Positions 11,195 through 23,479 of a stretch of DNA of 40,491 nucleotides are shown here, one piece after another (within the stretch, counting starts at the first letter, position 1; each line of letters begins with the position of its first letter). Location: contig JACDBX010000091.1 in assembly GCA_013694695.1 (NCBI GenBank), positions 1-40,491 on the forward strand. Reading direction: 5' to 3'. The notes under the pieces were generated by a model. It worked only from the letters and a program-made list of their open reading frames with translations, did not search any database and was not told where the DNA came from. This stretch comes from Gemmatimonadales bacterium. Its GTDB lineage: Bacteria > Gemmatimonadota > Gemmatimonadetes > Gemmatimonadales > GWC2-71-9. Position numbers and translations under genes: made by a program.

Positions 11195-12220
11195 ATGACC
11201 ACCCTCCCCGCTGCCCGTCCGCGCGTCACACTTCCCGACATTTCCGGCGTGTCGTGGGAACATCCCGCCGACCGCGCGGCGCTGCACGCGTTGCGCGCGG
11301 TGCCCGGCGTCGACGAGGTGATCCGCAAGATCCTCGGGATCCTCGGCGGGGAGCGGGGCATCCGGCTCCTCTTCCAGGGCAATGCCGTGCGGGTGGGCCC
11401 GACGCAATACCCACTGTTGTGGGGGCTTCACGTCGAGAATTGCGCCACGTTCGGGTGGGAGCGGATTCCCGAGCTCTTCGTCACCCAGACGCCGGTGTTC
11501 AACGCAGGGGCGTACGGCATCGACGATCCGTTCATCGTCATTCATTCGTCCGCAGTCGAGATCCTCGATGAGGATGAGATGCGCGTACTGCTGGCCCATG
11601 AGCTCGGCCACGTCATGAGTGGTCATTCGCTCTACCGGACGATGGCGGAGATCATGCTCCTCATCTCCTTCGGCGCACTTCCGTTGCTTGCCTCGATCGT
11701 GCTCCTTCCGGTTCGACTCGCCTTCCTGGAATGGTACCGCAAGTCGGAACTGTCGTCGGACCGTGCGGGCCTCCTGGGGTCGCAGGACCTGGCGGCGACA
11801 ATGCGCCTCTTCATGAAGATGGCGGGCGGGGGCAACACGGCCATCGTGCGGCCCGGCGACCTCAATCTCGAACCGTTCATGGTGCAGGCAAACGAGTATG
11901 CCACATCGAATGAAGGGCTCGACCTGGTGTACAAGATCGTCAACACCCTGGCCCTCACGCACCCGATGAACGTGGTGCGCGCCGCCGAGGTGCAGCGATG
12001 GGTCCAGGACGGGTCATACGAGCGGATACTGCGCGGGGAGTACACGCGGCGCGGCGCCGAGACGAGCGACCGACCGTTTGGCGACGACGTGCGAGAGGCG
12101 GCGGGGCACTACAAGGCGGAGTTCGCCGATGCAGCCGGCCACCTCAGGAACGCCGCGCGCCGTGCGGCCGAGCGCGCCAAGGAAGCATTCGACGACGCCC
12201 GCACCAAGGGCCCGGCGTGA
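11195..12220 (+). CDS. M48-family zinc metallopeptidase, membrane-anchored
   Basis: M48 peptidases (HtpX/Ste24/BepA-like) degrade misfolded membrane or envelope proteins. About 341 residues: the zinc motif HELGH at about 135-139 (AHELGHVMSGH), a hydrophobic segment right after it (about 152-177) that probably forms one or two membrane passes, and the third zinc ligand Glu in SELSSDRAG (about 185). The C-terminal 60 residues are Ala/Arg/Glu-rich and likely helical. A GTG one codon upstream (11192) is an alternative start. The stop overlaps the purD start (GTGA), so the peptidase and purD are probably translationally coupled, a pairing that looks like gene packing rather than shared function. 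Confidence 0.88.
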   Translation: MTTLPAARPRVTLPDISGVSWEHPADRAALHALRAVPGVDEVIRKILGILGGERGIRLLFQGNAVRVGPTQYPLLWGLHVENCATFGWERIPELFVTQTPVFNAGAYGIDDPFIVIHSSAVEILDEDEMRVLLAHELGHVMSGHSLYRTMAEIMLLISFGALPLLASIVLLPVRLAFLEWYRKSELSSDRAGLLGSQDLAATMRLFMKMAGGGNTAIVRPGDLNLEPFMVQANEYATSNEGLDLVYKIVNTLALTHPMNVVRAAEVQRWVQDGSYERILRGEYTRRGAETSDRPFGDDVREAAGHYKAEFADAAGHLRNAARRAAERAKEAFDDARTKGPA

Positions 12221-13494
12221 AGCTGCTGATTGTCGGTGGCGGGGGTCGCGAACATGCCCTTGCCTTGGCACTCGCCACCGACGATCCCGGCCACGAGATC
12301 TTCGTCGCACCCGGCAACCCCGGCACTGCCCCGTTCTGTGCCAACCTGTCCATTGCTGCCGATGACATCGAGCGCCTCGTGCGCGCAGCGAGCGCCCACT
12401 CGATCGAGCTCGTCGTCGTCGGCCCTGAAGTGCCGCTGGCCCTCGGCCTCGCCGACGCGCTGCGCGGTGCCGGGCACCTGGTGTTCGGACCAGGTGCGGC
12501 GGCGGCCCGGATCGAATCGTCGAAGGCATTCTCCAAGGACGTGATGGCAAGCGCTGGCGTGCCCACGGCAGCGAGCGAGGTGTTCACCGCACTCCAACCC
12601 GCCCTCGCACATGTCGATGTCCATCCGGAGCCACTCGTGGTCAAGGCATCGGGACTCGCGGCCGGCAAGGGAGCGGTGGTGTGCATCACGCGCGCTGAAG
12701 CGCGGGCGGCGGTGACCTCGATGCTCGGCGAGCGCGCCTTCGGCGAGGCCGGTGACGAGGTGGTGATCGAAACCTTCCTGCAGGGGGAGGAGCTCTCGGT
12801 GTTCGCCGTGACCAACGGCACGGAGATCCGCCTCCTCCCATCTGCCCAGGACCACAAGCGGCTCCTCGACGGGGACACCGGTCCCAACACCGGAGGCATG
12901 GGTGCGTACGCGCCGGTGGCGATCGCGACCGGGCCTCTGCTCGACCGGGTGGAGCGGGAGGTGCTGCGACCGACGCTGGCGGAGCTCTCCCGCCGCGGTG
13001 CCCCGTTCGTGGGCGTCCTCTACGCGGGCCTGATGATCGCCCCCGACGGCACACCGAACGTGATCGAGTTCAACTGCCGGTTCGGTGATCCCGAAGCGGA
13101 GGTGATACTGCCGCTCGTGAAGTCAGGACTGACCGCGCTCCTCGTCGCTGCGGCACGCGGCGAGCCGCTGCCGCGAATCGAGGTTCACGAGGCAGCCGCG
13201 GTCACGGTCGTGCTGGCGGCGGGTGGGTATCCCGAGGCAGCAAGCCGTGGCGACGTGATCACGATTCCTGATGACATGCCGGATGGTGTCACGGTCTTTC
13301 ATGCCGGCACGCGCACCGAAGCCGACGGCACGCTCGTCACCAGTGGCGGCAGGGTGCTGGCGGTCACGGCCGTCGCGCCGACATTCGAAGGTGCACTCGA
13401 GCGGAGCAGCGCTGCGGCCGAAATGGTCGAGTTCGAGGGGAAGCAGATGCGGCGAGATATCGGGTGGCGCGAGCTGGAACGTCGGAGCCGTTAG
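12217..13494 (+). CDS. purD: Phosphoribosylamine--glycine ligase (GAR synthetase)
   Basis: PurD joins phosphoribosylamine and glycine with ATP in step 2 of de novo purine synthesis. The 425-residue protein starts with the nucleotide/substrate loop KLLIVGGGGREHALA, then an ATP-grasp fold: VVKASGLAAGKGAVVC, QDHKRLLDGDTGPNTGGMGA and EFNCRFGDPEAEVILPL carry the ATP, phosphate and metal contacts. The GTG start overlaps the M48 stop (GTGA) and gives the canonical N-terminus. Its stop codon sits inside a GCCGTTA tandem repeat, and a region of 7-bp repeats separates it from the convergent mutM. Confidence 0.97.
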   Translation: MKLLIVGGGGREHALALALATDDPGHEIFVAPGNPGTAPFCANLSIAADDIERLVRAASAHSIELVVVGPEVPLALGLADALRGAGHLVFGPGAAAARIESSKAFSKDVMASAGVPTAASEVFTALQPALAHVDVHPEPLVVKASGLAAGKGAVVCITRAEARAAVTSMLGERAFGEAGDEVVIETFLQGEELSVFAVTNGTEIRLLPSAQDHKRLLDGDTGPNTGGMGAYAPVAIATGPLLDRVEREVLRPTLAELSRRGAPFVGVLYAGLMIAPDGTPNVIEFNCRFGDPEAEVILPLVKSGLTALLVAAARGEPLPRIEVHEAAAVTVVLAAGGYPEAASRGDVITIPDDMPDGVTVFHAGTRTEADGTLVTSGGRVLAVTAVAPTFEGALERSSAAAEMVEFEGKQMRRDIGWRELERRSR

Positions 13495-13575
13495 CCGTTA
13501 GCGATCATCCATCATCCATCCCCGTTCTCCGTTCGCCAGTCTCTCTTCTCTCTTCTCTCTTCTCTCTTCTCTCTA
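13487..13575. repeat. Mosaic of four different heptanucleotide tandem repeats
   Basis: Four successive repeats, all with a 7-bp period: GCCGTTA x2 (13487-13500), ATCATCC x2 (13504-13517), CCGTTC[T/G] x2 (13522-13535) and CTCTCTT x4 plus CTCTCTA (13541-13575). The purD stop lies in the first block and the mutM stop (TAG on the minus strand, 13575-13573) in the last. The repeats therefore lie in the 3' regions of two convergent genes and do not enter the reading frames beyond the stops. Confidence 0.9.
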
Positions 13576-14397
13576 CCTCTGGCATCTCCTGCAGAACACC
13601 GTCGCCCGATTGTCGATCGCGTGCGTTGTCGCGAGCATGGCACCGCAGGTTCGGCATGGCTGCCCGCCGCGTCCGTAGACATCGAGCGATTGCTGGAACC
13701 GGCCTTCCTCCCCAGCTGATGAGACGTAATCGCGGATGGTCGAGCCGCCGCTCGTGATCGCCGCCTGCAGGATCCGCCGTACCTCTGCGTGCAACGCAAT
13801 CAGCTTGCGCCGTGACACCTTGCTCGCGAGTGTCCGGGGATTGATGCGGGCAGCATGGAGCGCCTCGTTGGCGTAGATGTTCCCCACCCCCACGACCTGG
13901 CGCTGGTTCATGATCACCTTCTTGATCGCGGAATCCGAGCGCGCAATCCGATCGGCAAACTCCTCGGCGGTGAATTCCGGGTCGAGCGGCTCCGGACCGA
14001 GTCGGGTGGCATAGCGCTCCCATCCGTCCGCATCGAGCCAGCGAATCGTGCCGATCCGCCGCACGTCCCGATAGATCAGGGTCGACTTGTCGTCGAGCTC
14101 GCACTGGAGGACGGCGTACTGGCGGAGCGCGGTGGTCATCCGGCCGACGTGGTGAATCAGGGTACCGCTCATGCCGGGCTGGATTGCCAGGATCTGTCGG
14201 TCCGTGTGGAGCAGCGCGTGCTTGGCGCGCCGGTCGATCGCCGTGATCGTCGCGCCGATGAGGCCTCGATGGAGAGCCCGGCGGGTGACGCCGTCGAGGA
14301 TGTCCTCGTGAGTCAGGTGTACTCCGTGAATACGGCGACCCGTGAGCAACGGTCGCAATTGGCGGACGAGGGTTTCGACTTCGGGAAGTTCAGGCAT
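13573..14397 (-). CDS. mutM: Formamidopyrimidine-DNA glycosylase (Fpg/MutM)
   Basis: MutM excises 8-oxoguanine and formamidopyrimidines from DNA and cleaves the abasic site. The mature protein must begin with Pro: the sequence MPELPEVETL gives the catalytic Pro2 and Glu3, which fixes the start at 14397. Lys59 (DRRAKHALL) and the QPGMSGTL loop (73-80) are present. The C-terminal zinc finger has two CxxC pairs (CRTCG and CRRCQR). The length of 274 residues is normal. It diverges from malQ (128 bp between starts) and converges on purD. Its TAG stop lies in the last unit of a CTCTCTT repeat, so repeat slippage would change only the downstream untranslated sequence. Confidence 0.96.
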   Translation of the reverse strand: MPELPEVETLVRQLRPLLTGRRIHGVHLTHEDILDGVTRRALHRGLIGATITAIDRRAKHALLHTDRQILAIQPGMSGTLIHHVGRMTTALRQYAVLQCELDDKSTLIYRDVRRIGTIRWLDADGWERYATRLGPEPLDPEFTAEEFADRIARSDSAIKKVIMNQRQVVGVGNIYANEALHAARINPRTLASKVSRRKLIALHAEVRRILQAAITSGGSTIRDYVSSAGEEGRFQQSLDVYGRGGQPCRTCGAMLATTHAIDNRATVFCRRCQR

Positions 14398-14433
14398 CTG
14401 GCGGAATCGACTCGTGATTTCGGGAAGGCACGC

Positions 14434-14463
14434 TTGACGTGTTGCCGGCGACGCACGTAGGAT
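14434..14463 (+). promoter_or_regulatory. Sigma-70-like promoter of malQ
   Basis: TTGACG (14434-14439), 18 bp, TAGGAT (14458-14463) in the mutM-malQ divergent region. The predicted start near 14470 gives a leader of about 55 nt to the GTG at 14526. This is the best match to the classical consensus in the window. Confidence 0.55.
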
Positions 14464-14525
14464 AGCGCCGCCCGTCACGATGCCGCACCACGCCCCCACC
14501 CCCTCATTTTCACCAGGACCGTGCC

Positions 14526-16454
14526 GTGGACGATCGGTCGGCGCTTCACATCCTCGCGCAGCGCATGGGCGTTTCCACCGGCTTCACCGACGGACTGGGG
14601 ACCGTTCGCGGCGTGTCCGACGCCACCCTCGAACGCGTCTGTCGCGCCCTCGGTGCGGCCCTTGACGGTCCCGGTGGAGTGGTCACCGCCCTCGAACACG
14701 CACTCGACAACGCGATTGACCTGACGCCGCCTCCGGTGGTGGTGGCGTGGAACGGCAACCTTGCGCTCCCCGGCACCGGGCCGGGGACTGCCTCCACGCT
14801 TCACCTGGAGTCGGGCGGCGTGGTCGAGATGGGCACCCCCGGCCGCATCCCGGGAATCGATGGGTCGATCCCCCTGGGATACCACACCTTGCACACCGTG
14901 GTCAACGGTGTGCCCCATTCATCCACGGTGATCAGCGCACCGATGCACTCGTGGCGCCGAGCCGATTCGCGGCCAGCGTGGGGCGTGGGCGCCCATCTGG
15001 CGGCCCTTCGCTCGGCACGCAGTCGCGCGGTGGGTGACCTTCGCGACCTCGCCACCACGTGCCGGTGGGTTGCGGCAAACGGCGGTAACACCCTCACCGT
15101 GCTGCCGCTTCTGCCCACGTTCAATACCGGCGACGTCGAGCCCAGCCCGTATTCGCCAGTCAGCCGCCTGTTCTGGTCGGAACTCATGCTCGATCTCGGT
15201 GATGCGCACGCCGCGACAGGTACGGTCGACCGCCTCGACGTCGCGAGCGCGCACGAAGAGATCCTCCGCGCACTCGCATTGCTGCCGTTGCCCGACCTGT
15301 CGACCGCGGACGATGAGCTGCGCCAGTATGCACGGTTCAGGGGTGCGCAGGCGCGCCTCGGGCGCGACTGGCGCCGCTGGCCCGTCGCGGCGCGCGACGG
15401 AACGCTCACTACGGACGATGTCGATCCCGAAACCGAACGGTTTCACCTCGCCGCCCAGCTCCTCACGACACGCCAGCTGCACGATACCGCCAGCCGACTC
15501 ACCGAGGCGGGGTTTCGGCTCGGCCTCGACCTGTCCCTCGGCGTGCATCCCGATGGCTACGACATCTGGTCGCGGCCCGGTCTCCATGCCATGGACATGT
15601 CGGTCGGGGCACCACCCGATGGAGGCTTCCCGAGCGGACAGGACTGGGGATTCCCGCCGACAATTCCGGCTGCGTCGCAGGCGGAGGGGCACCGCTATTT
15701 CGCGCGGTCAGTCGCACACCAGATGGCGGTCGCCGGCGTGCTCCGGATCGACCACGTGATGGCACTGAGTCGGCTCTACTGGATTCCGCACGGCGCCGGC
15801 CTTCACGACGGCACGTATGTCACGTACCCCCTCGAGGAGCTCGTCGCGGTGGTGACCCTGGAATCGGCGCGCCACGAGTGCGAAGTGATCGGCGAGAATC
15901 TCGGGACGGTGACGCCAGAGTTCAGGTCGGTGCTGCCACGACACGGGATCCCGGGGATGTTTCTCGCCCAGTTTGCAGCGTCCGACGTGGCAAAGATGGC
16001 GATCCCCACCGAACATGACGTGGCTTTGATCGGAACCCACGACACGCCAACGCTGGCGGGGTGGCTCGCCGCCGACGACGTCGACGAGCGGGTCAGCAGC
16101 GGCCTGTTGCCAGCGGAGGAAGCGCCCGGCGTCCGCGACGCACGGGCCGCGAGTGTTGCCCGCCTTGCGGCGTGGCTCGGCCGGGACGCTGACGATCCGG
16201 ATGCCATGCTGGCGGGACTGTTCGAGTGGCTCGGACTGTCGGCCTCGCCGCTGGTACTGCCATGGATCGAGGATCTTTGGCTGGAGGTGCGCGGCGTGAA
16301 CCTTCCCGGGACGCGCTCCTCGGCGCGACCGAACTGGCAGCGACCGATGGGCCGCCTCCTTGACGACATCCTGGCGGACTCGTCGATAACCGCGCGCATG
16401 CAGATCCTCGATGCTGCCCGACTCGCCGCTGCCAGGCAACACGGGCGTTCCTGA
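14526..16454 (+). CDS. malQ: 4-alpha-glucanotransferase (amylomaltase, GH77)
   Basis: MalQ transfers alpha-1,4-glucan segments between maltodextrins in the cytoplasm, releasing glucose. The 642-residue protein is the long type: an N-terminal beta domain (about 1-145) precedes the GH77 barrel, which opens with WGVGAHLAALRSARSRAVGDLRDL-type sequence (about 150-175). The catalytic triad is visible: nucleophile Asp409 in RIDHVMALSR, acid/base Glu457 in VIGENLGTV, and Asp506 in IGTHDTPTLAGW. The GTG start fits the promoter at 14434-14463. Together with pgm at 20.6-22.3 kb it points to intracellular glycogen or maltodextrin turnover. No other glycogen gene is adjacent. Confidence 0.94.
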   Translation: MDDRSALHILAQRMGVSTGFTDGLGTVRGVSDATLERVCRALGAALDGPGGVVTALEHALDNAIDLTPPPVVVAWNGNLALPGTGPGTASTLHLESGGVVEMGTPGRIPGIDGSIPLGYHTLHTVVNGVPHSSTVISAPMHSWRRADSRPAWGVGAHLAALRSARSRAVGDLRDLATTCRWVAANGGNTLTVLPLLPTFNTGDVEPSPYSPVSRLFWSELMLDLGDAHAATGTVDRLDVASAHEEILRALALLPLPDLSTADDELRQYARFRGAQARLGRDWRRWPVAARDGTLTTDDVDPETERFHLAAQLLTTRQLHDTASRLTEAGFRLGLDLSLGVHPDGYDIWSRPGLHAMDMSVGAPPDGGFPSGQDWGFPPTIPAASQAEGHRYFARSVAHQMAVAGVLRIDHVMALSRLYWIPHGAGLHDGTYVTYPLEELVAVVTLESARHECEVIGENLGTVTPEFRSVLPRHGIPGMFLAQFAASDVAKMAIPTEHDVALIGTHDTPTLAGWLAADDVDERVSSGLLPAEEAPGVRDARAASVARLAAWLGRDADDPDAMLAGLFEWLGLSASPLVLPWIEDLWLEVRGVNLPGTRSSARPNWQRPMGRLLDDILADSSITARMQILDAARLAAARQHGRS

Positions 16455-16502
16455 GACGCAGGGCGATGCACGGCGCGCGTGCGCAAACATTCATGAGGCG
16501 GA

Positions 16503-16534
16503 CCGGGAGTCTGTGTCCCGGCCAGCATGCCGGC
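16503..16534 (+). other. Hairpin-forming sequence between malQ and the ferritin-like gene
   Basis: A perfect CCGGGA / TCCCGG stem (16503-16508 and 16516-16521) is followed directly by a near-palindrome centred on GCATGC (16525-16530). There is no T-run, so it is only a possible terminator for malQ or a leader structure for the next gene. Confidence 0.3.
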
Positions 16535-16597
16535 CGTCCACAGGGCATGGCGGGCGCCCATCCCACTCCGATTGCCAGGCGACCGCACGACCCCAAC

Positions 16598-16603
16598 GAG
16601 GAG
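16598..16603 (+). promoter_or_regulatory. Ribosome binding site deciding the ferritin-like gene start
   Basis: GAGGAG ends 7 nt before the GTG at 16611. This supports that start over an in-frame ATG at 16527, which has no such site and would add an unrelated Arg/Pro-rich extension. Confidence 0.7.
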
Positions 16604-16610
16604 TCATCCC

Positions 16611-17096
16611 GTGGCCAAGCCCAAGGCCTCCAGCACGAGCGGCACCGGCCCGATCTCCCGCGAACGCCTCATCGAGCTGCTGAATGAGGACCTCGCGCGC
16701 GAGTACCAGGCGATCATCGCATATGTGGTGTATTCGCAGGTGATCACGGGCGCGCGGTTCATGTCGATCGCAAAGGAGCTCGAGGTGCACGCCAAGGAGG
16801 AGCTGTCGCACGCCCTCATCCTGTCAAAGCAGATCGACTATCTGGGCGGGACGCCGACCGTCACCCCGAAGCCGGTGAAGATGTCCGACAAGGCGGAGGA
16901 CCTGCTGCGGTTCGACCTCGACAACGAGACGGAAACGATCAGGGCATACCAGGCGCGGGTCCGCCAGTGCGAGGCACTGGGCGAATTCGCCATGGCGGAG
17001 CACATCCGGGACATCCTGAAGCAGGAACAGGAACACCAGATCGACCTTGCCACCGCACTCGGTGAACCCCCGCCGGACATGACGTCTCGCGCCTGA
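16611..17096 (+). CDS. Ferritin-like (bacterioferritin-type) diiron protein
   Basis: The 161-residue four-helix protein has the diiron ligand set of the bacterioferritin/ferritin-like superfamily: Glu31 in REYQAIIAY, Glu64-x-x-His67 in EELSHA, a third-helix Glu (around 107-109, NETETI) and Glu139-x-x-His142 in EQEHQ. Such proteins store iron or oxidise Fe(II) and protect against peroxide. A short basic, Ser/Thr-rich N-terminal tail (1-14) precedes the first helix, reminiscent of DNA-binding tails of Dps-like proteins, though that role is speculative. A GAGGAG site supports the GTG start. It appears to be monocistronic between malQ and a gene remnant. Confidence 0.85.
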   Translation: MAKPKASSTSGTGPISRERLIELLNEDLAREYQAIIAYVVYSQVITGARFMSIAKELEVHAKEELSHALILSKQIDYLGGTPTVTPKPVKMSDKAEDLLRFDLDNETETIRAYQARVRQCEALGEFAMAEHIRDILKQEQEHQIDLATALGEPPPDMTSRA

Positions 17097-17105
17097 CCGT
17101 ACGCC

Positions 17106-17204
17106 TCAGCGATCGAGATCGCGGATGAGTGCCTTCATCTCATCGACCTCGCGGCGCTGGGGCTCGACGATGTCGTCGGCAAGGCGCCGAACGAGTTCCC
17201 ACGA
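17106..17204 (-). pseudogene. Remnant of a DUF305-like gene (C-terminal 32 codons)
   Basis: Between the ferritin-like and S15 genes the minus strand encodes 32 sense codons before a TGA. They include VRRLADDIVEPQRREVDEM and end ALIRDLDR. This resembles the last helix of DUF305 proteins (pattern A..I...Q..EI..M). There is no usable start: an in-frame TGA (17207-17205) sits immediately upstream, and the S15 stop is only 24 bp further. The rest of the gene appears deleted. The family match is from memory of the pattern and the region is short, so a chance open frame is possible. Confidence 0.4.
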
Positions 17205-17219
17205 TCATGTTGCACGTCG

Positions 17220-17236
17220 CCTGACCGGATGTCAGG
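17220..17236 (-). other. Small hairpin at the end of the S15 gene
   Basis: CCTGAC and GTCAGG (17220-17225 and 17231-17236) form a perfect 6-bp stem with a 5-nt loop overlapping the S15 stop codon. No U-run follows, so it is a weak terminator candidate at best. Confidence 0.25.
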
Positions 17237-19178
17237 GCACGGCGCCGGCGTGCCGTGCGCCCTTCACGCCCCCCACCACCGGAATGTCAAAGTGCGAATG
17301 GGCCAGGTCGAGCGTGAGCTCAGTTCCCGCCGCGGGCCAAAGGGTGAACTGGCGATCGCTGGACATGATCATCACCGCGAGCCGGCTACCTGACGGAACG
17401 TATTCGTCGTCGGGTTCGAGGTCGAAGGTGAGGTCGTAGAACCGCCCCGGCACCAGCGGCTCGCCTGGCTCCATCGACTGGTAATCACCACCCCGGGTCA
17501 GCGACTTCCAGTTGCGGATGTCGGCCCACCCGCGGGTGAGCACACCGCGGTGACTGGCCGCGCCCACCCCCGCTGAATCGAATGGCAACATCACCAACCA
17601 TACCGACAGGTTCGCGGCCGGCTTGCTCGACGCGATGCGCAGTGTCACTCGCGGAGTGCCGGAGATGTGCATCGTGTCGGTGAGGACGGCCGTCGCATAC
17701 AGCAGGCGGTGGGGCGAACTCGTTGCGGTCGCGTTGGCGCTGCCGCTCATTGCGACATCGTCGACCAAGCGATCTGTTCCCTGGCTCCCCTTTCCGAGCG
17801 CGAGCGACCCCGACCCGCCGGGACCCGACACCGGACGGAACGCCACCATTTCGGAACCCGGAACGGGGAATGACGCGAACGGAGTGGGAAGCATGGTGCG
17901 GGGGCGCGCCCGCGGGGCTGCCGAATCCGTGGGAGCCGTTGCGGGCTTCATTGCCTGCGGCGCCTGCATGCCGGCATCCTGGACGATCCAGACCGGCGGG
18001 TCCTGCTGAACGCCGTTGTCGACACCGTACAAGTAGTGCGTGAACCACCGGTTCACCATGTCGGCTGGTGGGTTCCCGCCATGACCGCCCTGGTGCATGT
18101 ACAGCGACACCGGCTGTTTGCGCGCCTGCATTGCGTCGAAGATCCGCACGCTGTGCGAAGGGAATACGTTGTAGTCATTGAAGCCGTGCGCCAGCAGCAC
18201 AGCAGCGCGGATACCCTTCGTGTATTGCGCCAGGTCGCGCACCCGCCAGAACTCGTTGATGTCGCCGGTCTGGCGGTCCTGTCCCTTTGCCCCAGCGAAC
18301 ACCCCGTTCTTCCAGATCCGGTCACAGTTGGCGCGGCCGGTGGTGTCACCACTCGCCACGAAGTCGTAGAGCACGTCGACATCCTCGCCGAGGTACCCCC
18401 CGGGCGAGCGCACCAGACCGTTGGCCCGGTAGTAGTGGTAGTACGACGTGTTCGGCGATACCGGGACGACAACCTCCAGCCCCTTGACGCCCGTGGTCGC
18501 AGCCGCGAGCGGCAGCGTCCCTTCGTACGATGTACCGATCATGCCGACCTTGCCTGTCGACCACGACGTCGCGTCGATGCGCGCCGATCCGGTGCGCGTC
18601 GTGTAGCCGGGCGCACGGCCGTTCAACCAGTCGATCACGGCCTTCGGCGCCATCCGTTCCGGGATGTCGCCTACCGTCGGACAACCCTCTGAGAGCCCGG
18701 TGCCCGGCTGCTCCGAATGCACCACCGCAAATCCGCGGGGCACCCATTCATTCACGAGGGAATTCGAGATGCGCGGGCGCGGCGAACGAAACGCCGGTGG
18801 TGTCATGGGATCACGGGGAGCGGGCGATGCGTCGAGCTCCTGCCCGACGTGCCAGTTGACCTGGCCGCGCGCGGTTCCGGCGTAGTACGGGCTCGATCCC
18901 ATGACCACCGGCACGCGCAGCCCCTCGGACGCCGTCTGGCCGGGCCGGGTTACATCGACGTGGATTCGGTCCTTCCGGCCGTCGTGGTCGGAATCGAACG
19001 ACGTCTCCACCCAGAGCTCCTGTCGAATCCATTGCGCCGTGTCCGCAAATGCCGGGACCACCTGCGCCAGACCACCGCGGAATACCGGACCTGCCTTGGG
19101 CGCGCCCTGCGCTGCCACTGTGGCCGAGGTGAGCAACACTGCACCGGCGAACAGGACCGCGGAACATCGATTGATCAT
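17232..19178 (-). CDS. Secreted S15-family X-Pro dipeptidyl-peptidase/CocE-type hydrolase
   Basis: This alpha/beta hydrolase removes N-terminal Xaa-Pro dipeptides or, in CocE-like relatives, hydrolyses esters or beta-lactam-type amides. The 648-residue protein has a signal peptide (MINRCSAVLF..., ending VAA|QG at 23-24), so it acts in the periplasm or outside. The catalytic triad is visible: Ser217 in GTSYEG, Asp336 in AHGFNDYNVF and His367 in HQGGHGG. The C-terminal part (about 440-648) is the beta-jelly-roll of the family. ATG 19178 is chosen because a good promoter lies 30 bp upstream; the earlier ATG at 19223 lies inside that promoter's inverted repeat. A peptide-scavenging role is inferred. 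Confidence 0.9.
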   Translation of the reverse strand: MINRCSAVLFAGAVLLTSATVAAQGAPKAGPVFRGGLAQVVPAFADTAQWIRQELWVETSFDSDHDGRKDRIHVDVTRPGQTASEGLRVPVVMGSSPYYAGTARGQVNWHVGQELDASPAPRDPMTPPAFRSPRPRISNSLVNEWVPRGFAVVHSEQPGTGLSEGCPTVGDIPERMAPKAVIDWLNGRAPGYTTRTGSARIDATSWSTGKVGMIGTSYEGTLPLAAATTGVKGLEVVVPVSPNTSYYHYYRANGLVRSPGGYLGEDVDVLYDFVASGDTTGRANCDRIWKNGVFAGAKGQDRQTGDINEFWRVRDLAQYTKGIRAAVLLAHGFNDYNVFPSHSVRIFDAMQARKQPVSLYMHQGGHGGNPPADMVNRWFTHYLYGVDNGVQQDPPVWIVQDAGMQAPQAMKPATAPTDSAAPRARPRTMLPTPFASFPVPGSEMVAFRPVSGPGGSGSLALGKGSQGTDRLVDDVAMSGSANATATSSPHRLLYATAVLTDTMHISGTPRVTLRIASSKPAANLSVWLVMLPFDSAGVGAASHRGVLTRGWADIRNWKSLTRGGDYQSMEPGEPLVPGRFYDLTFDLEPDDEYVPSGSRLAVMIMSSDRQFTLWPAAGTELTLDLAHSHFDIPVVGGVKGARHAGAVP

Positions 19179-19207
19179 CTGGGACTCGGCGTTGGGTGGG
19201 ATGCGGA

Positions 19208-19236
19208 AACGTATGTTGAACATGGCCAGTGTTCAA
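19208..19236 (-). promoter_or_regulatory. Promoter of the S15 peptidase gene
   Basis: On the minus strand TTGAAC (19236-19231), 17 bp, TACGTT (19213-19208). Predicted start near 19201, giving a leader of about 22 nt to the ATG at 19178. The -35 and spacer are covered by a perfect inverted repeat, so binding there should block the promoter. Confidence 0.55.
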
Positions 19237-19239
19237 CAT
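19213..19239. promoter_or_regulatory. Operator-like inverted repeat over the S15 promoter
   Basis: Perfect 10-bp arms ATGTTGAACA (19213-19222) and TGTTCAACAT (19230-19239) with a 7-bp spacer. The symmetry, size and overlap with the -35 region are typical of a dimeric repressor site. No regulator gene is adjacent, so the binding protein is unknown. Confidence 0.5.
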
Positions 19240-19245
19240 GTCCGC

Positions 19246-19266
19246 TGGTGCAACGTTGCTGCACCA
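19246..19266. promoter_or_regulatory. Second operator-like inverted repeat in the divergent region
   Basis: TGGTGCA (19246-19252) and TGCACCA (19260-19266) are inverted around a core, and GCAACGTTGC (19250-19259) is itself a perfect palindrome. It lies just before a weak -10 (TAGACT, 19268-19273) for the plus-strand barrel gene. Confidence 0.4.
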
Positions 19267-19343
19267 TTAGACTGCGGTGAAAGCGATCTCGGGCGCGCCG
19301 TGCGCCCATTCACCCCACTTTCCACCCGAACGGTACCCAGTTG

Positions 19344-20627
19344 ATGCGCCTGACCCTGTGCTTTCTCGCCCTGATCGGCGTGGCCCTGCAACGGTCCAGC
19401 CCGGCAAGCGCGCAGGCTGCTGTCACGCCGGTCGCGTCAACGGCACGACTGCGGATCTTCCTCGACTGCGCCACCCATTGCGACGGGGAGTACCTCCGCT
19501 CGGAGATCCGGATCGTCGACTGGGTAACGGACCGCAACGCAAGCGACATTTACGTGCTCGCCACGTCGCAGCGAACAGGTGCGGGTGGCAACGATGTCGC
19601 GCTTGAGTTCATCGGCCGGGGTGGTGAGCTCGATGGCCTCACCGACCGCCACACTTTCCAGACAGCGCCCGATGCCACGAACGATGAATTTCGCTCGGAG
19701 TTCGCCCGGGTGCTCAGGCTGGGGCTGGTGCGATATCTACTGGCCAGCGATCGCGCCCGGTCGCTCATTCTCACCGGGGGCGACGTGGACGAGCTCAACG
19801 ACCGCGCCCAGTTGCCAACCACGGATCCGTGGAACTTCTGGGTCTTCAACATCCAGCTCGACGGACAGCTCAACGCTGAATCGAAGGAGAAGGGAACCGA
19901 GGTGGAGCTGGAGCTCAACGCGTCGCGGATCACCGATGCGTGGAAGCTGCAGTTCGAGCTTGCCGGTTCGCTCGATCGCAATACCTACGAACTCGACGAC
20001 GGCAGACGAGTCCGGGCAACCAGGGATCGCTGGAATGCGGATGCCCTGCTGGGCCGGTCGCTGGGGCCGCAGTGGTCGGCGGGCATCGATGCCGGTGCGC
20101 TCGGGGCCAAGCGCGAGAACCTCGACCTGCGGCTGCGGTTCGCACCGGTGATCGAGTACGATGCCTTCCCGTACGCCGAGGCGCATCGCCGCCGGCTGAT
20201 CCTGCAGTACAGCCTGGGCATCAACCGGTACGAATACGTGGAGGAGACGGTCTACAGCCGACTCCAGGAGACTCGCCTCGACCAGCGGCTGCGCGTTGAG
20301 TACCGGACTCGGCAGCCATGGGGTGGCGCCAGCCTGACCGGCACCGCCGAAGCATTCCTGCATGATCTCGGGCAGAACCGGCTGGGCATCGACGGTGACA
20401 TCACGGTGAGGCTCGCGAAGGGGCTCGGGCTCGACATCGAGGCATCGTACTCGAAGGTGCGGAACCAGATCACCCTGCCCAAGGGCTCCGCCACGGACGA
20501 CGAGATCTTTCTCGACCTCCGCCAGCGCGCGACCAACTACCAGGCCCAGGTCGCTGTCGGCATCTCATACACCTTTGGTTCGTTTCTGAACAGCGTCGTC
20601 AACCCGCGGTTCAACAACCTCGACTAG
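19344..20627 (+). CDS. Outer-membrane beta-barrel protein of unknown function
   Basis: The 427-residue product has a signal peptide (MRLTLCFLALIG..., cleavage ASA|QA at 23-24). An N-terminal periplasmic part (about 25-150, containing two Cys in FLDCATHCDGEY) comes before a C-terminal barrel (about 150-427) with many alternating strands. The end reads ISYTFGSFLNSVVNPRF, a C-terminal pattern I associate with outer-membrane proteins of the FCB group. The N-terminal sequence (IFLDCA.HCD..YLRSEI) recurs in uncharacterised proteins and may be a domain of its own. A TTG codon precedes the ATG at 19344. Its stop shares CTAG with the convergent pgm stop. It diverges from the S15 gene across two operator-like repeats and may be co-regulated with it. 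Confidence 0.8.
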   Translation: MRLTLCFLALIGVALQRSSPASAQAAVTPVASTARLRIFLDCATHCDGEYLRSEIRIVDWVTDRNASDIYVLATSQRTGAGGNDVALEFIGRGGELDGLTDRHTFQTAPDATNDEFRSEFARVLRLGLVRYLLASDRARSLILTGGDVDELNDRAQLPTTDPWNFWVFNIQLDGQLNAESKEKGTEVELELNASRITDAWKLQFELAGSLDRNTYELDDGRRVRATRDRWNADALLGRSLGPQWSAGIDAGALGAKRENLDLRLRFAPVIEYDAFPYAEAHRRRLILQYSLGINRYEYVEETVYSRLQETRLDQRLRVEYRTRQPWGGASLTGTAEAFLHDLGQNRLGIDGDITVRLAKGLGLDIEASYSKVRNQITLPKGSATDDEIFLDLRQRATNYQAQVAVGISYTFGSFLNSVVNPRFNNLD

Positions 20628-22261
20628 GCGAGCGCGGTATCGACGATCGCCTGCGCCTCGTCGATGATCGCCTCGAGGTGCGGCCGACCGCGGAACGATT
20701 CGGCGTAGATCTTGTAGATGTCCTCCGTGCCGGATGGTCGAGCCGCGAACCACCCCGATGCCGTCGACACCTTGATCCCGCCAATCGCCGCGTCGTTCCC
20801 GGGAGCATGGCTGAGCACGGCTTCAATGCGCTCCCCGGCGAGCGTGTCGCTCGTGACCGCGTCGGGTGAGAGTTTCGCGAGGCGCGTCTTCTGTGCGGGC
20901 GTGGCCCCGGCCTCGACCCGGTCATACACCGGCTCACCGTGCTCACTCGTGAGCGCGGCATAGCGCTCCGCCGGGTCCTTCCCCGATCCAGCCATGATTT
21001 CCGCAGCCAGCAGCGCGGGAATGAATCCGTCCTTGTCGGTGGACCATACCGTCCCGTCGCGACGGAGGAACGACGCGCCGGCACTTTCCTCCCCGACAAA
21101 CCCAAGTGATCCATCGAACAGGCCATCGACGAACCACTTGAAGCCGACCGGCACCTCGTGAAGCCTCCGACCCAGCGACGCAGCGACCCGATCGATCATG
21201 CTGCTGCTCACCACCGTCTTCCCCACTGCGGCTGCGGCCGACCACTCGTCCCTGGTCCGGAAGAGGTGGTCCACCATCACGGCGAGGTAGGCATTGGGCG
21301 GCAGGAGCCCACTCTGCGTCACGATGCCGTGTCGGTCGTGGTCGGTGTCGCATGCAAAGGCGATGTCGAATCGATCGCCGATCGCGATGAGACGCTGCAT
21401 GGCGTCGGTGGACGACGGATCCATGCGGATCTTCCCATCCCAGTCAACCGGCATGAACGCGAAGGTCGGATCAACGACCTCGCTCACGACGGTGAGGTCG
21501 AGACGATGGCGGTCCGCGATCTGTTGCCAGTAGTGAACGCCGGCGCCGCCCATCGGGTCGACACCCAGGCGCAGGCCCGCGCCGCGGATCCCGTCCATGT
21601 CGATGACGGCCCCGAGGTCGTCGATGTATGGCGTGCGGTAGTCGTGCCGGTGAGTGGTGGCCGCGCGCAACGCTGCCGCATGCGGAACTCGCGGCACACC
21701 AGCAAGACCGGCCTCGAGCAGTCGGTTGGCCTCGGCCTCGATCCATCGGGTCACTGCGGTGTCGGCCGGGCCGCCGTGAGGCGGATTGTATTTGAAGCCC
21801 CCGTCGGCCGGCGGGTTGTGCGACGGAGTGATCACGATCCCGTCGGCGAGTCCGCTCGTGCGGCCGCGGTTGTACCCGAGGATCGCGTGCGAGATGACCG
21901 GCGTGGGGGTGTAGTCGTCATCCGCGGCGAGCATCACCTCGACACCGTGCGCCGCGAGTACCTCAAGCGCCGACTCGGCGGCCGGGCGTGAGAGCGCATG
22001 GGTATCGATGCCCAGGAAGAGCGGGCCATCATGCCCCTGCTCGCGGCGGTACCGGCAGATCGCCTCGCTGATCGCCAGGACGTGATGCTCGTTGAAGGTT
22101 CGATCGAACGCTGAGCCACGGTGTCCGGAGGTCCCGAAGCTCACCCGCTGCGTTGCAATGGCGGGATCGGGCACCTCGTTGAAATACGCCACCTGGAGCT
22201 TGGCAACATCGATGAGCAGGTCGGCGGGCGGCAGCTTTCCAGCGAGGGGGCTTCGTGTCAT
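20624..22261 (-). CDS. pgm: Phosphoglucomutase (alpha-D-glucose phosphate-specific)
   Basis: Pgm interconverts glucose-1-phosphate and glucose-6-phosphate, linking glycogen and nucleotide-sugar synthesis to glycolysis. The 545 residues match the E. coli Pgm type (about 546). Visible motifs: FGTSGHRGS (42-50), phosphoserine loop ITPSHNPPADGGFKYNPPHG with Ser147, metal loop CDTDHDRHG, and C-terminal RPSGTEDIYKIYAESF. ATG 22261 (MTRSPLAGKL) gives the family N-terminus; an ATG 31 codons upstream is rejected. A TATTGT element at 22314-22309 might be its -10. It is convergent with the barrel gene, the two stop codons overlapping in one CTAG. Confidence 0.95.
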   Translation of the reverse strand: MTRSPLAGKLPPADLLIDVAKLQVAYFNEVPDPAIATQRVSFGTSGHRGSAFDRTFNEHHVLAISEAICRYRREQGHDGPLFLGIDTHALSRPAAESALEVLAAHGVEVMLAADDDYTPTPVISHAILGYNRGRTSGLADGIVITPSHNPPADGGFKYNPPHGGPADTAVTRWIEAEANRLLEAGLAGVPRVPHAAALRAATTHRHDYRTPYIDDLGAVIDMDGIRGAGLRLGVDPMGGAGVHYWQQIADRHRLDLTVVSEVVDPTFAFMPVDWDGKIRMDPSSTDAMQRLIAIGDRFDIAFACDTDHDRHGIVTQSGLLPPNAYLAVMVDHLFRTRDEWSAAAAVGKTVVSSSMIDRVAASLGRRLHEVPVGFKWFVDGLFDGSLGFVGEESAGASFLRRDGTVWSTDKDGFIPALLAAEIMAGSGKDPAERYAALTSEHGEPVYDRVEAGATPAQKTRLAKLSPDAVTSDTLAGERIEAVLSHAPGNDAAIGGIKVSTASGWFAARPSGTEDIYKIYAESFRGRPHLEAIIDEAQAIVDTALA

Positions 22262-22379
22262 CGGTGCGTGCGGTTGATCATGGCGGGATTCCGTGCGGGA
22301 GTCGATGAACAATAGCACGCGTGCGAGACCGAATCCGGGAACGCCTGCCGTCATCCGGCGAATCCGCGGCGTCGCTGCT

Positions 22380-22385
22380 TACTTT
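22380..22385 (+). promoter_or_regulatory. Candidate -10/-7 element for a leaderless UvrC-like transcript
   Basis: TACTTT is followed by 5 nt (CCCGG) and the GTG at 22391. No Shine-Dalgarno site is present, and no clear -35 is seen 17-18 bp upstream. Confidence 0.4.
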
Positions 22386-22390
22386 CCCGG

Positions 22391-23479
22391 GTGACCCGAC
22401 TCGAGCTTTCCCTCCCCGCCGGCGACCTGACCGCCTTGCGGTTCCGGATTCGTCGACTGGCTGAGGATCGCCCCGGCACCTATCGAATGCTCGACGCATC
22501 CGGGCGGATCCTGTATGTCGGCAAGGCCAAGAGCGTTCGCACCCGCCTGATGTCGTACTTCCGCGCGAAATATCCGGACGACAAGGCCGCCCGCATCCTG
22601 CACGCAACGAGCGACATCCGGTTCGACTATACGCCGAGCGAGTTTGCCGCAGCGCTCGCTGAATTGCGGCTGATCCGCCAGCACCGGCCACCCTACAACG
22701 TGGCGATGAACCGGCAACGCGGGATGATGTTCCTCGTCCTCACCGACGAGCCAGCACCCCGCCTGCTCGCGACCCAGTCGCCCGAGCGGCATCCCGGCCG
22801 GGTCTATGGTCCGCTTCCCTCCCGGGCGCGCACGTCCGATGGCGCGCGTGTCCTCACCGACCTGCTGGCCCTGCGCGACTGTCGCGGCAACGCCCCGATG
22901 CATTTCGCCGAACAGGGTGATCTCTTCACCGAGCCACGGCGTGCGGCGTGCCCGCGATTCGATTTCGGGACCTGCCTGGCTCCGTGCGCGGGCGAGGTGT
23001 CGGAGCCGGTGTACCAACGGCACGCCGAGCGGGCGGCGGCCTTCTGCGAGGGGAGGGCGATCGAGCCGGTCGATCGCGTGGTGCGGGAGATGAGCGCCCG
23101 GGCGGAGTCCGGTGACTTCGAGGGAGCGCTTCGGTGGCGCGAACGGTTCGAGGCACTCGAATGGTTGCTGGCGGCCACCACCCGCGCCCGATGTGCGCTC
23201 GAGCTGCTCACGTTTGTTTATCGTGACCCGGGCGCGCGCGGCGACGACAGGGTCTACCTGATCCGCCAGGGCGAGGTGCGAGGCGGATGGCCCGACCCCA
23301 CCACACCGCTCGAACGAGAGGCATTCAACGCCGCGGTGCGGGAAGAACGTACCCGCGCCGTTGCCCCGATCCATCAGGTACATCCGGACCGGCTCCACGA
23401 ACGCCTGCTCGTGATGCACTGGTTCCGGACGCGCCCCGATTCGTGGCGACGAACGGTGAAGCTGGAGGAATGGAAGTAA
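22391..23479 (+). CDS. UvrC-like GIY-YIG nuclease lacking the C-terminal endonuclease half
   Basis: The 362-residue protein corresponds to the N-terminal half of UvrC, which makes the 3' incision in nucleotide excision repair. A GIY-YIG domain (about 26-105) shows GTYRMLDASGRILYVGKAK, Arg50 and the metal-binding Glu91 in AELRLIRQHRPPYN. Next come Cys164, Cys187, Cys195 and Cys199 (CPRFDFGTCLAPC), matching the UvrC Fe-S cluster cysteines. A UVR-like helical hairpin (about 228-262) could bind UvrB. The RNase H-like and HhH domains that make the 5' incision are absent, so it is Cho-like but retains a UVR-like region. A full-length UvrC is presumably encoded elsewhere. The start is GTG 22391. Confidence 0.85.
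   Translation: MTRLELSLPAGDLTALRFRIRRLAEDRPGTYRMLDASGRILYVGKAKSVRTRLMSYFRAKYPDDKAARILHATSDIRFDYTPSEFAAALAELRLIRQHRPPYNVAMNRQRGMMFLVLTDEPAPRLLATQSPERHPGRVYGPLPSRARTSDGARVLTDLLALRDCRGNAPMHFAEQGDLFTEPRRAACPRFDFGTCLAPCAGEVSEPVYQRHAERAAAFCEGRAIEPVDRVVREMSARAESGDFEGALRWRERFEALEWLLAATTRARCALELLTFVYRDPGARGDDRVYLIRQGEVRGGWPDPTTPLEREAFNAAVREERTRAVAPIHQVHPDRLHERLLVMHWFRTRPDSWRRTVKLEEWK

Follow-up and report, generated by a model that had tools for sequence, protein, structure and literature searches.

We find that the gene at 22391-23479 (+ strand) of the window, by which we mean the whole 40,491-nucleotide stretch of Gemmatimonadales DNA that was analysed, encodes a protein that is, judged from its sequence, a UvrC paralogue and by architecture a Cho-like nuclease, in which the 3'-incision half of UvrC is kept. 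The open reading frame starts with GTG and runs for 362 residues in the layout of a UvrC N-terminal half: a GIY-YIG nuclease domain, a region of four cysteines (C4), a UVR helical hairpin of the UvrB-binding type and a C-terminal segment of about 100 residues. The GIY-YIG domain at residues 28-103 (22472-22699, +) was found by Pfam with an E value of 1.5e-5, above the cut-off, and the same scan of the window protein returned no match at E<=10 to RNase H, EndoV-like 5' nuclease, HhH, ExoIII or exonuclease domains. The ORF, Pfam and the family profile confirm what a preliminary description had read from the letters, that is, a UvrC N-half that retains GIY-YIG and UVR, has no 5'-incision domain and ends at residue 362. 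The best NCBIfam model is the DEDD-exonuclease fusion PRK07883.1-4 (residues 25-352, E 2.4e-42), under its cut-off at 145 against 495 bits, followed by UvrC TIGR00194 (residues 25-261, E 1.9e-40), also under its cut-off; the Cho model PRK10545 covers residues 26-214 only, with 43.8 bits against a cut-off of 367. Among solved structures, significant sequence matches come from UvrC GIY-YIG domains only.

For residue conservation we built an alignment of 74 cho-like rows, one from the window and 73 from other loci, together with five divergent ORFs of families f7 and f8, 12 UvrC and four Cho or fusion rows; L040, which is incomplete, and eight loci that were duplicates or overlapped others were left out. 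Residues Y31, Y42, R52, E91 and N103, which we take to be the GIY-YIG catalytic positions, are invariant in all 74 cho-like rows. The four cysteines C164, C187, C195 and C199 (22880-22987, +) had been assigned to UvrC positions, correctly so, and are invariant in 74/74 cho-like and 12/12 UvrC rows; their spacing is CX22CX7CX3C in the window protein versus CX11CX7CX3C in E. coli UvrC (L076). An iron-sulfur loop behind the GIY-YIG domain of UvrC is mentioned in PMC9426483, and the cho-like cysteines would supply the ligands that a [4Fe-4S] site of the UvrC type requires, making a [4Fe-4S] cluster possible. The active site, the cysteines and the UVR core are unchanged in members down to about 35% identity.

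The UVR hairpin (residues 225-262; 23063-23176, +) is weak in the window protein alone, where Pfam places it at 228-257 with an E value of 0.12 and 12.6 bits against a cut-off of 21.5, and is clear across the family. In its core E244 and A246 are kept in 74/74 and R250 in 72/74 cho-like rows, the same residues as in UvrC, and these positions differ in the Cho and Cho+Exo rows, where the core is largely lost. A profile made from residues 218-263 of the 74 members and searched against 1936 frames finds the cho-like rows, 12/12 UvrC, the fusion L071 and the C-terminus of UvrB of the window genome (E 3.7e-7, at residues 650-680 in a frame of 696), the sole further row standing at E 0.23; among these frames it does not pick up Cho L072 or the Cho+Exo rows L073 and L074. 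When members were scanned singly, Pfam reported UVR at E<=0.5 in 8 of 11, the best at 1.3e-8. By these profiles the UVR of the cho-like protein is homologous to those of UvrC and UvrB. The C-terminal residues (23177-23476, +) are positioned in the profile alignment like the UvrC segment preceding the 5'-nuclease domain, the whole cho-like profile aligning from 11-347 to UvrC 12-345 with an E value of 5.1e-54. Residues 264-362 by themselves reach E 0.06 against UvrC at the expected place (280-344), with 0.3 for the reversed control, which is not significant, and on this ground we rejected their assignment as the UvrC middle domain; in the whole-profile alignment the tail follows the UvrC order.

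An AlphaFold2 model of the window protein built with 11 sequences (mean pLDDT 68.5, pTM 0.63) has helices at 225-239 and 243-272 that form a hairpin with a pLDDT of about 78-90 by block and match UVR-type hairpins, as the preliminary description had proposed; a predicted structure lacking UVR, which would have spoken against that description, is thus not what the model gives. Confidence is mostly low in residues 1-110 and in the cysteine loop, with residues 165-186 under 50, and because the GIY-YIG part of the model is of low confidence the assignment of that fold rests on sequence. The top Foldseek match is the UvrC GIY-YIG domain 1yd6, a weak one (E 0.044, rmsd 12.9), and the E. coli UvrB C-terminal domain 1e52 comes at rank 44 with an rmsd of 1.3 over 39 columns and an E value of 7.6. 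VIA-align places a ClpC hairpin at the top (Z 8.4, rmsd 1.0 over 52) and fits 1e52 poorly (Z 4.7, rmsd 4.6); hairpins resemble many helical proteins, and unrelated helical hairpins reach Z 7.7 by the same program. The model agrees with a UVR hairpin, for which the sequence profile is the stronger evidence.

This architecture is already known. A 2006 study (PMC1564403) lists a Cho-like category, C4-UvrBb with no EndoV and no ExoIII, that had one member, Gloeobacter violaceus GI 37521011, and proposes that it arose by duplication and truncation of UvrC. The window protein falls within that definition as matched by described architecture, the elements common to both being GIY-YIG, the four-cysteine region, the UvrB-binding domain and the lack of EndoV-HhH and of ExoIII; the Gloeobacter member, compared by description, differs from the Gemmatimonadota form, which is phylum-wide, lies mostly beside mutM and carries about 100 residues after UVR. 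Cho-like+Exo, with 11 members in the same text, corresponds to the actinobacterial DEDD fusion (PRK07883) that is the best NCBIfam match of the window protein over residues 25-352, and UVR is found in its representative L071; unlike the window protein, the fusion carries an N-terminal exonuclease, PF00929, and in L071 two of the four cysteine positions are gapped or altered. A detached exonuclease half adjoining the cho-like gene was also considered and rejected, the single PF00929 (RNase_T) match of the genome being on another contig. E. coli-type Cho (ydjQ) is likewise a UvrC N-half with GIY-YIG and four cysteines, as in Klebsiella Cho (L072), but it has no UVR and ends in a C-terminal domain of its own (PMC1564403), where the window protein has UVR instead. 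Of the contrast with Cho first drawn from the sequence, the UVR part therefore stands, whereas the cysteines, which the Klebsiella protein also has, do not separate the two. UvrC has the same GIY-YIG, C4, UVR order and adds PF08459 and HhH, both absent from the window protein. In a tree of 79 rows, from which some f1 rows were left out, 58 cho-like rows form one branch (99/97), the 12 UvrC another (100/100) and the five f7/f8 ORFs a third. The long-branch L071 joins the five divergent ORFs, a placement that is unsure given the program's warning of long branches meeting. These five (L054, L055, L065, L066, L067) are a third, divergent kind of UvrC N-half ORF of 379-434 codons with four cysteines and no clear UVR. 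In two f7 genomes (L062, L064) the uvrC frame is open for about 500 codons further upstream, giving 1131 and 1124 codons in total, which may be a fusion or chance.

The cho-like form is a real gene kind of the phylum. In a sample of 200 Gemmatimonadota genomes, the window genome G000 included, the window protein was matched at E<=1e-5 in 195, and the best scores fell either at 2.6e-53 and below or at about 1e-35 and above. The set with the lower E values, which is the cho-like one, takes in 141 of the 200 genomes among the matches listed, down to about 161 bits, with 28 in family f1, 68 in f2, 3 in f3, 5 in f4, 34 in f5 and 3 in f6; 59 genomes have no copy of the cho-like clade among the matches listed. 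The ten relatives of the window protein that carry names are Gemmatimonadota MAGs, and the relatives align over its residues 1-361. Of the 200 genomes, 196 have the UvrC 5'-nuclease domain PF08459, among them 140 of the 141 cho-like ones; the sole exception, G107 (L027), probably reflects an assembly gap. Neither the phage nor the plasmid collection held a record with one place covering 80% of the window protein, by which an origin from either was rejected; those matches listed from the two collections that bear annotation are for the most part UvrC, joined by Cho, exonuclease fusions and further GIY-YIG proteins. In a one-contig genome (G074) a third copy, L116:2776-3603, consists of the C-terminal half only and is joined to what by eye resembles an IS91-type transposase remnant.

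In relatives the gene directly upstream of cho-like is mutM (fpg), which is displaced in the window (13579-14397, - strand; identified by TIGR00577 at 258 bits, Pfam and synteny), and upstream of mutM stands purD (11998-13494, +; Pfam GARS and synteny). Among 75 loci, the window and 74 others, mutM lies upstream of cho-like on the same strand in 53 and within 400 bp in 49, and, if the earliest candidate start of cho-like is taken, the gene runs into the mutM stop in 23 of the 49 and begins within 30 bp of it in 13 more, these being possible starts; purD precedes mutM in many loci (a cluster of 38). Counted by genome among the matches listed, 66 cho-like genomes of f1, f2, f3, f4 and f6 have a mutM, and in 62 of them it is upstream on the same strand at no more than 400 bp; three of the remaining four have it at 1.1-2.2 kb and the fourth, the window genome, does not have it adjacent. 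In f5 it adjoins cho-like in none of 31 genomes among the matches listed. These counts leave out 41 f2 and 3 f5 cho-like genomes without a listed mutM, and as the genomes share ancestry they are not independent events. We found no matching title or abstract on a link between mutM and cho-like in the open-licence literature. The linkage suggests a role against oxidative or other glycosylase-substrate damage.

In four genus mates, two family mates and L007, purD, mutM and cho-like follow in that order on one strand. In the window purD is followed by mutM on the opposite strand, a 4-alpha-glucanotransferase, a ferritin-like gene, an S15 peptidase, a phosphoglucomutase and then cho-like, such that the block 13495-22390, with CT-rich repeats at its left edge (about 13515-13570), stands where genus mates have mutM. 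Flipping 13579-22390 would restore mutM directly against cho-like, and the simple reading is an inversion-like rearrangement with one edge at the cho-like junction that carried mutM off by 8 kb; the source could also be an error in the assembly, which is in many contigs. A -10-like box, TACTTT (22380-22385, +), lies 5 nt before the GTG start and suggests that cho-like may have its own promoter of the leaderless type. In 18 of the 75 loci, seven of them near-identical second paralogues, a candidate start has TAnnnT 5-8 nt ahead of it; at other distances the figure is about 0.8 per offset. The Cho of E. coli type is SOS-induced. None of three LexA-type patterns tried matched upstream of cho-like, and SOS control was set aside on this weak ground, as the patterns may not be those of this phylum.

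The second paralogue has a neighbourhood of its own, a photolyase-related gene standing just upstream on the same strand in seven of eight loci (L008-L013 and L115, not L114), with PF04244 present in both such genes tested. This linkage suggests UV damage. A TAGCTT box is seen 6 nt before the GTG of the same seven copies.

The window genome (2.8 Mb, 195 contigs, 93.8% complete) has uvrB, two uvrA genes above the family cut-off (G000:C70 and G000:C33; L124, L125) and, on another contig, a full-length UvrC frame with GIY-YIG, UVR, PF22920, PF08459 and HhH, which came to light as a second, weaker match to the window protein. The gene under study is thus not the sole uvrC of its genome, the case in which the earlier reading would have failed. 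That it is a truncated or frameshifted uvrC, a gene fragment or an assembly error fits the missing C-half of UvrC and yet has next to no probability: a complete uvrC exists elsewhere in the same genome, relatives across many genera share the end point, and the cho-like rows branch apart from UvrC. A frameshifted or split uvrC is ruled out by that separate gene and by the recurrence of the half-length form in relatives. We propose, with moderate confidence, that the most likely mechanism is that of an alternative 3'-incision nuclease recruited by the UVR of UvrB, with UvrC making the 5' cut. A UVR-UVR contact would bring the cho-like protein to the UvrB-DNA pre-incision complex, where it would make the 3' nick, after which the RNase H half of a separate UvrC would make the 5' nick; the route may be used for lesions poorly suited to the 3' site of UvrC itself, a role that has been described for E. 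coli Cho. The preliminary description had likewise suggested an alternative 3' nuclease recruited by UvrB, a reading that our findings agree with and partly support. The preserved active site, cysteines and UVR and the presence of uvrB, the two uvrA and full uvrC in one genome favour this proposal. Counting against it are a context of mutM, a base-excision enzyme, and not of uvr genes, the separation of mutM from cho-like in f5, a UVR in the window protein below the Pfam cut-off, the weak match to 1e52, the lack of a LexA-type box of the three kinds tried and the 59 genomes without a cho-like copy among the matches listed.

It is the mutM context that gives weight to another partner. MutM would remove an oxidised base and nick, and the GIY-YIG of the cho-like protein would cut on the 3' side of the blocked end or of a damage cluster, in a patch repair of glycosylase products that is independent of UvrB. 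The adjacency in 62 of 66 genomes (among the matches listed) and the overlapping or closely spaced genes (23 of 49 loci, and 13 more within 30 bp) speak for MutM as the main partner, but a UVR core kept in 74/74 rows would be needless if UvrB were not the partner, purD belongs to the same gene string so that neighbourhood need not mean partnership, f5 has the protein with no adjoining mutM (0/31, among the matches listed), and the window and its genus mates have their own promoter-like box; on balance we find this account unlikely. Still smaller is the chance we allow for a generally redundant 3' nuclease kept in slack as a backup, one to which no particular lesion class belongs and whose neighbours are inherited by descent. 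Its absence from 59/200 genomes among the matches listed, by which it is dispensable in many, and the almost constant presence of the full uvrC domain agree with such a role, whereas the unchanged active site, cysteines and UVR core at about 35% identity and the second repair gene adjoining the second paralogue in 7/8 loci disagree with it. A more speculative extension of UvrB recruitment, which we consider improbable, is that Gemmatimonadota pair a lesion-specific enzyme (MutM or, in the case of the second paralogue, the photolyase-related protein) with a dedicated 3' nuclease that docks on UvrB and hand particular lesions directly to a shortened nucleotide excision repair. If true, such pairs would be a physical bridge from base excision or photoreversal to nucleotide excision repair.

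Our results turn Cho-like, a category of one protein in the 2006 study, into a conserved, phylum-wide family in which the UvrB-docking part is intact. The family offers a natural test of the part that the UVR of UvrC plays in 3' incision, as the 5' nuclease is on another protein, and its recurrent mutM neighbourhood hints, in a concrete form open to testing, that base excision and nucleotide excision repair may communicate with each other.
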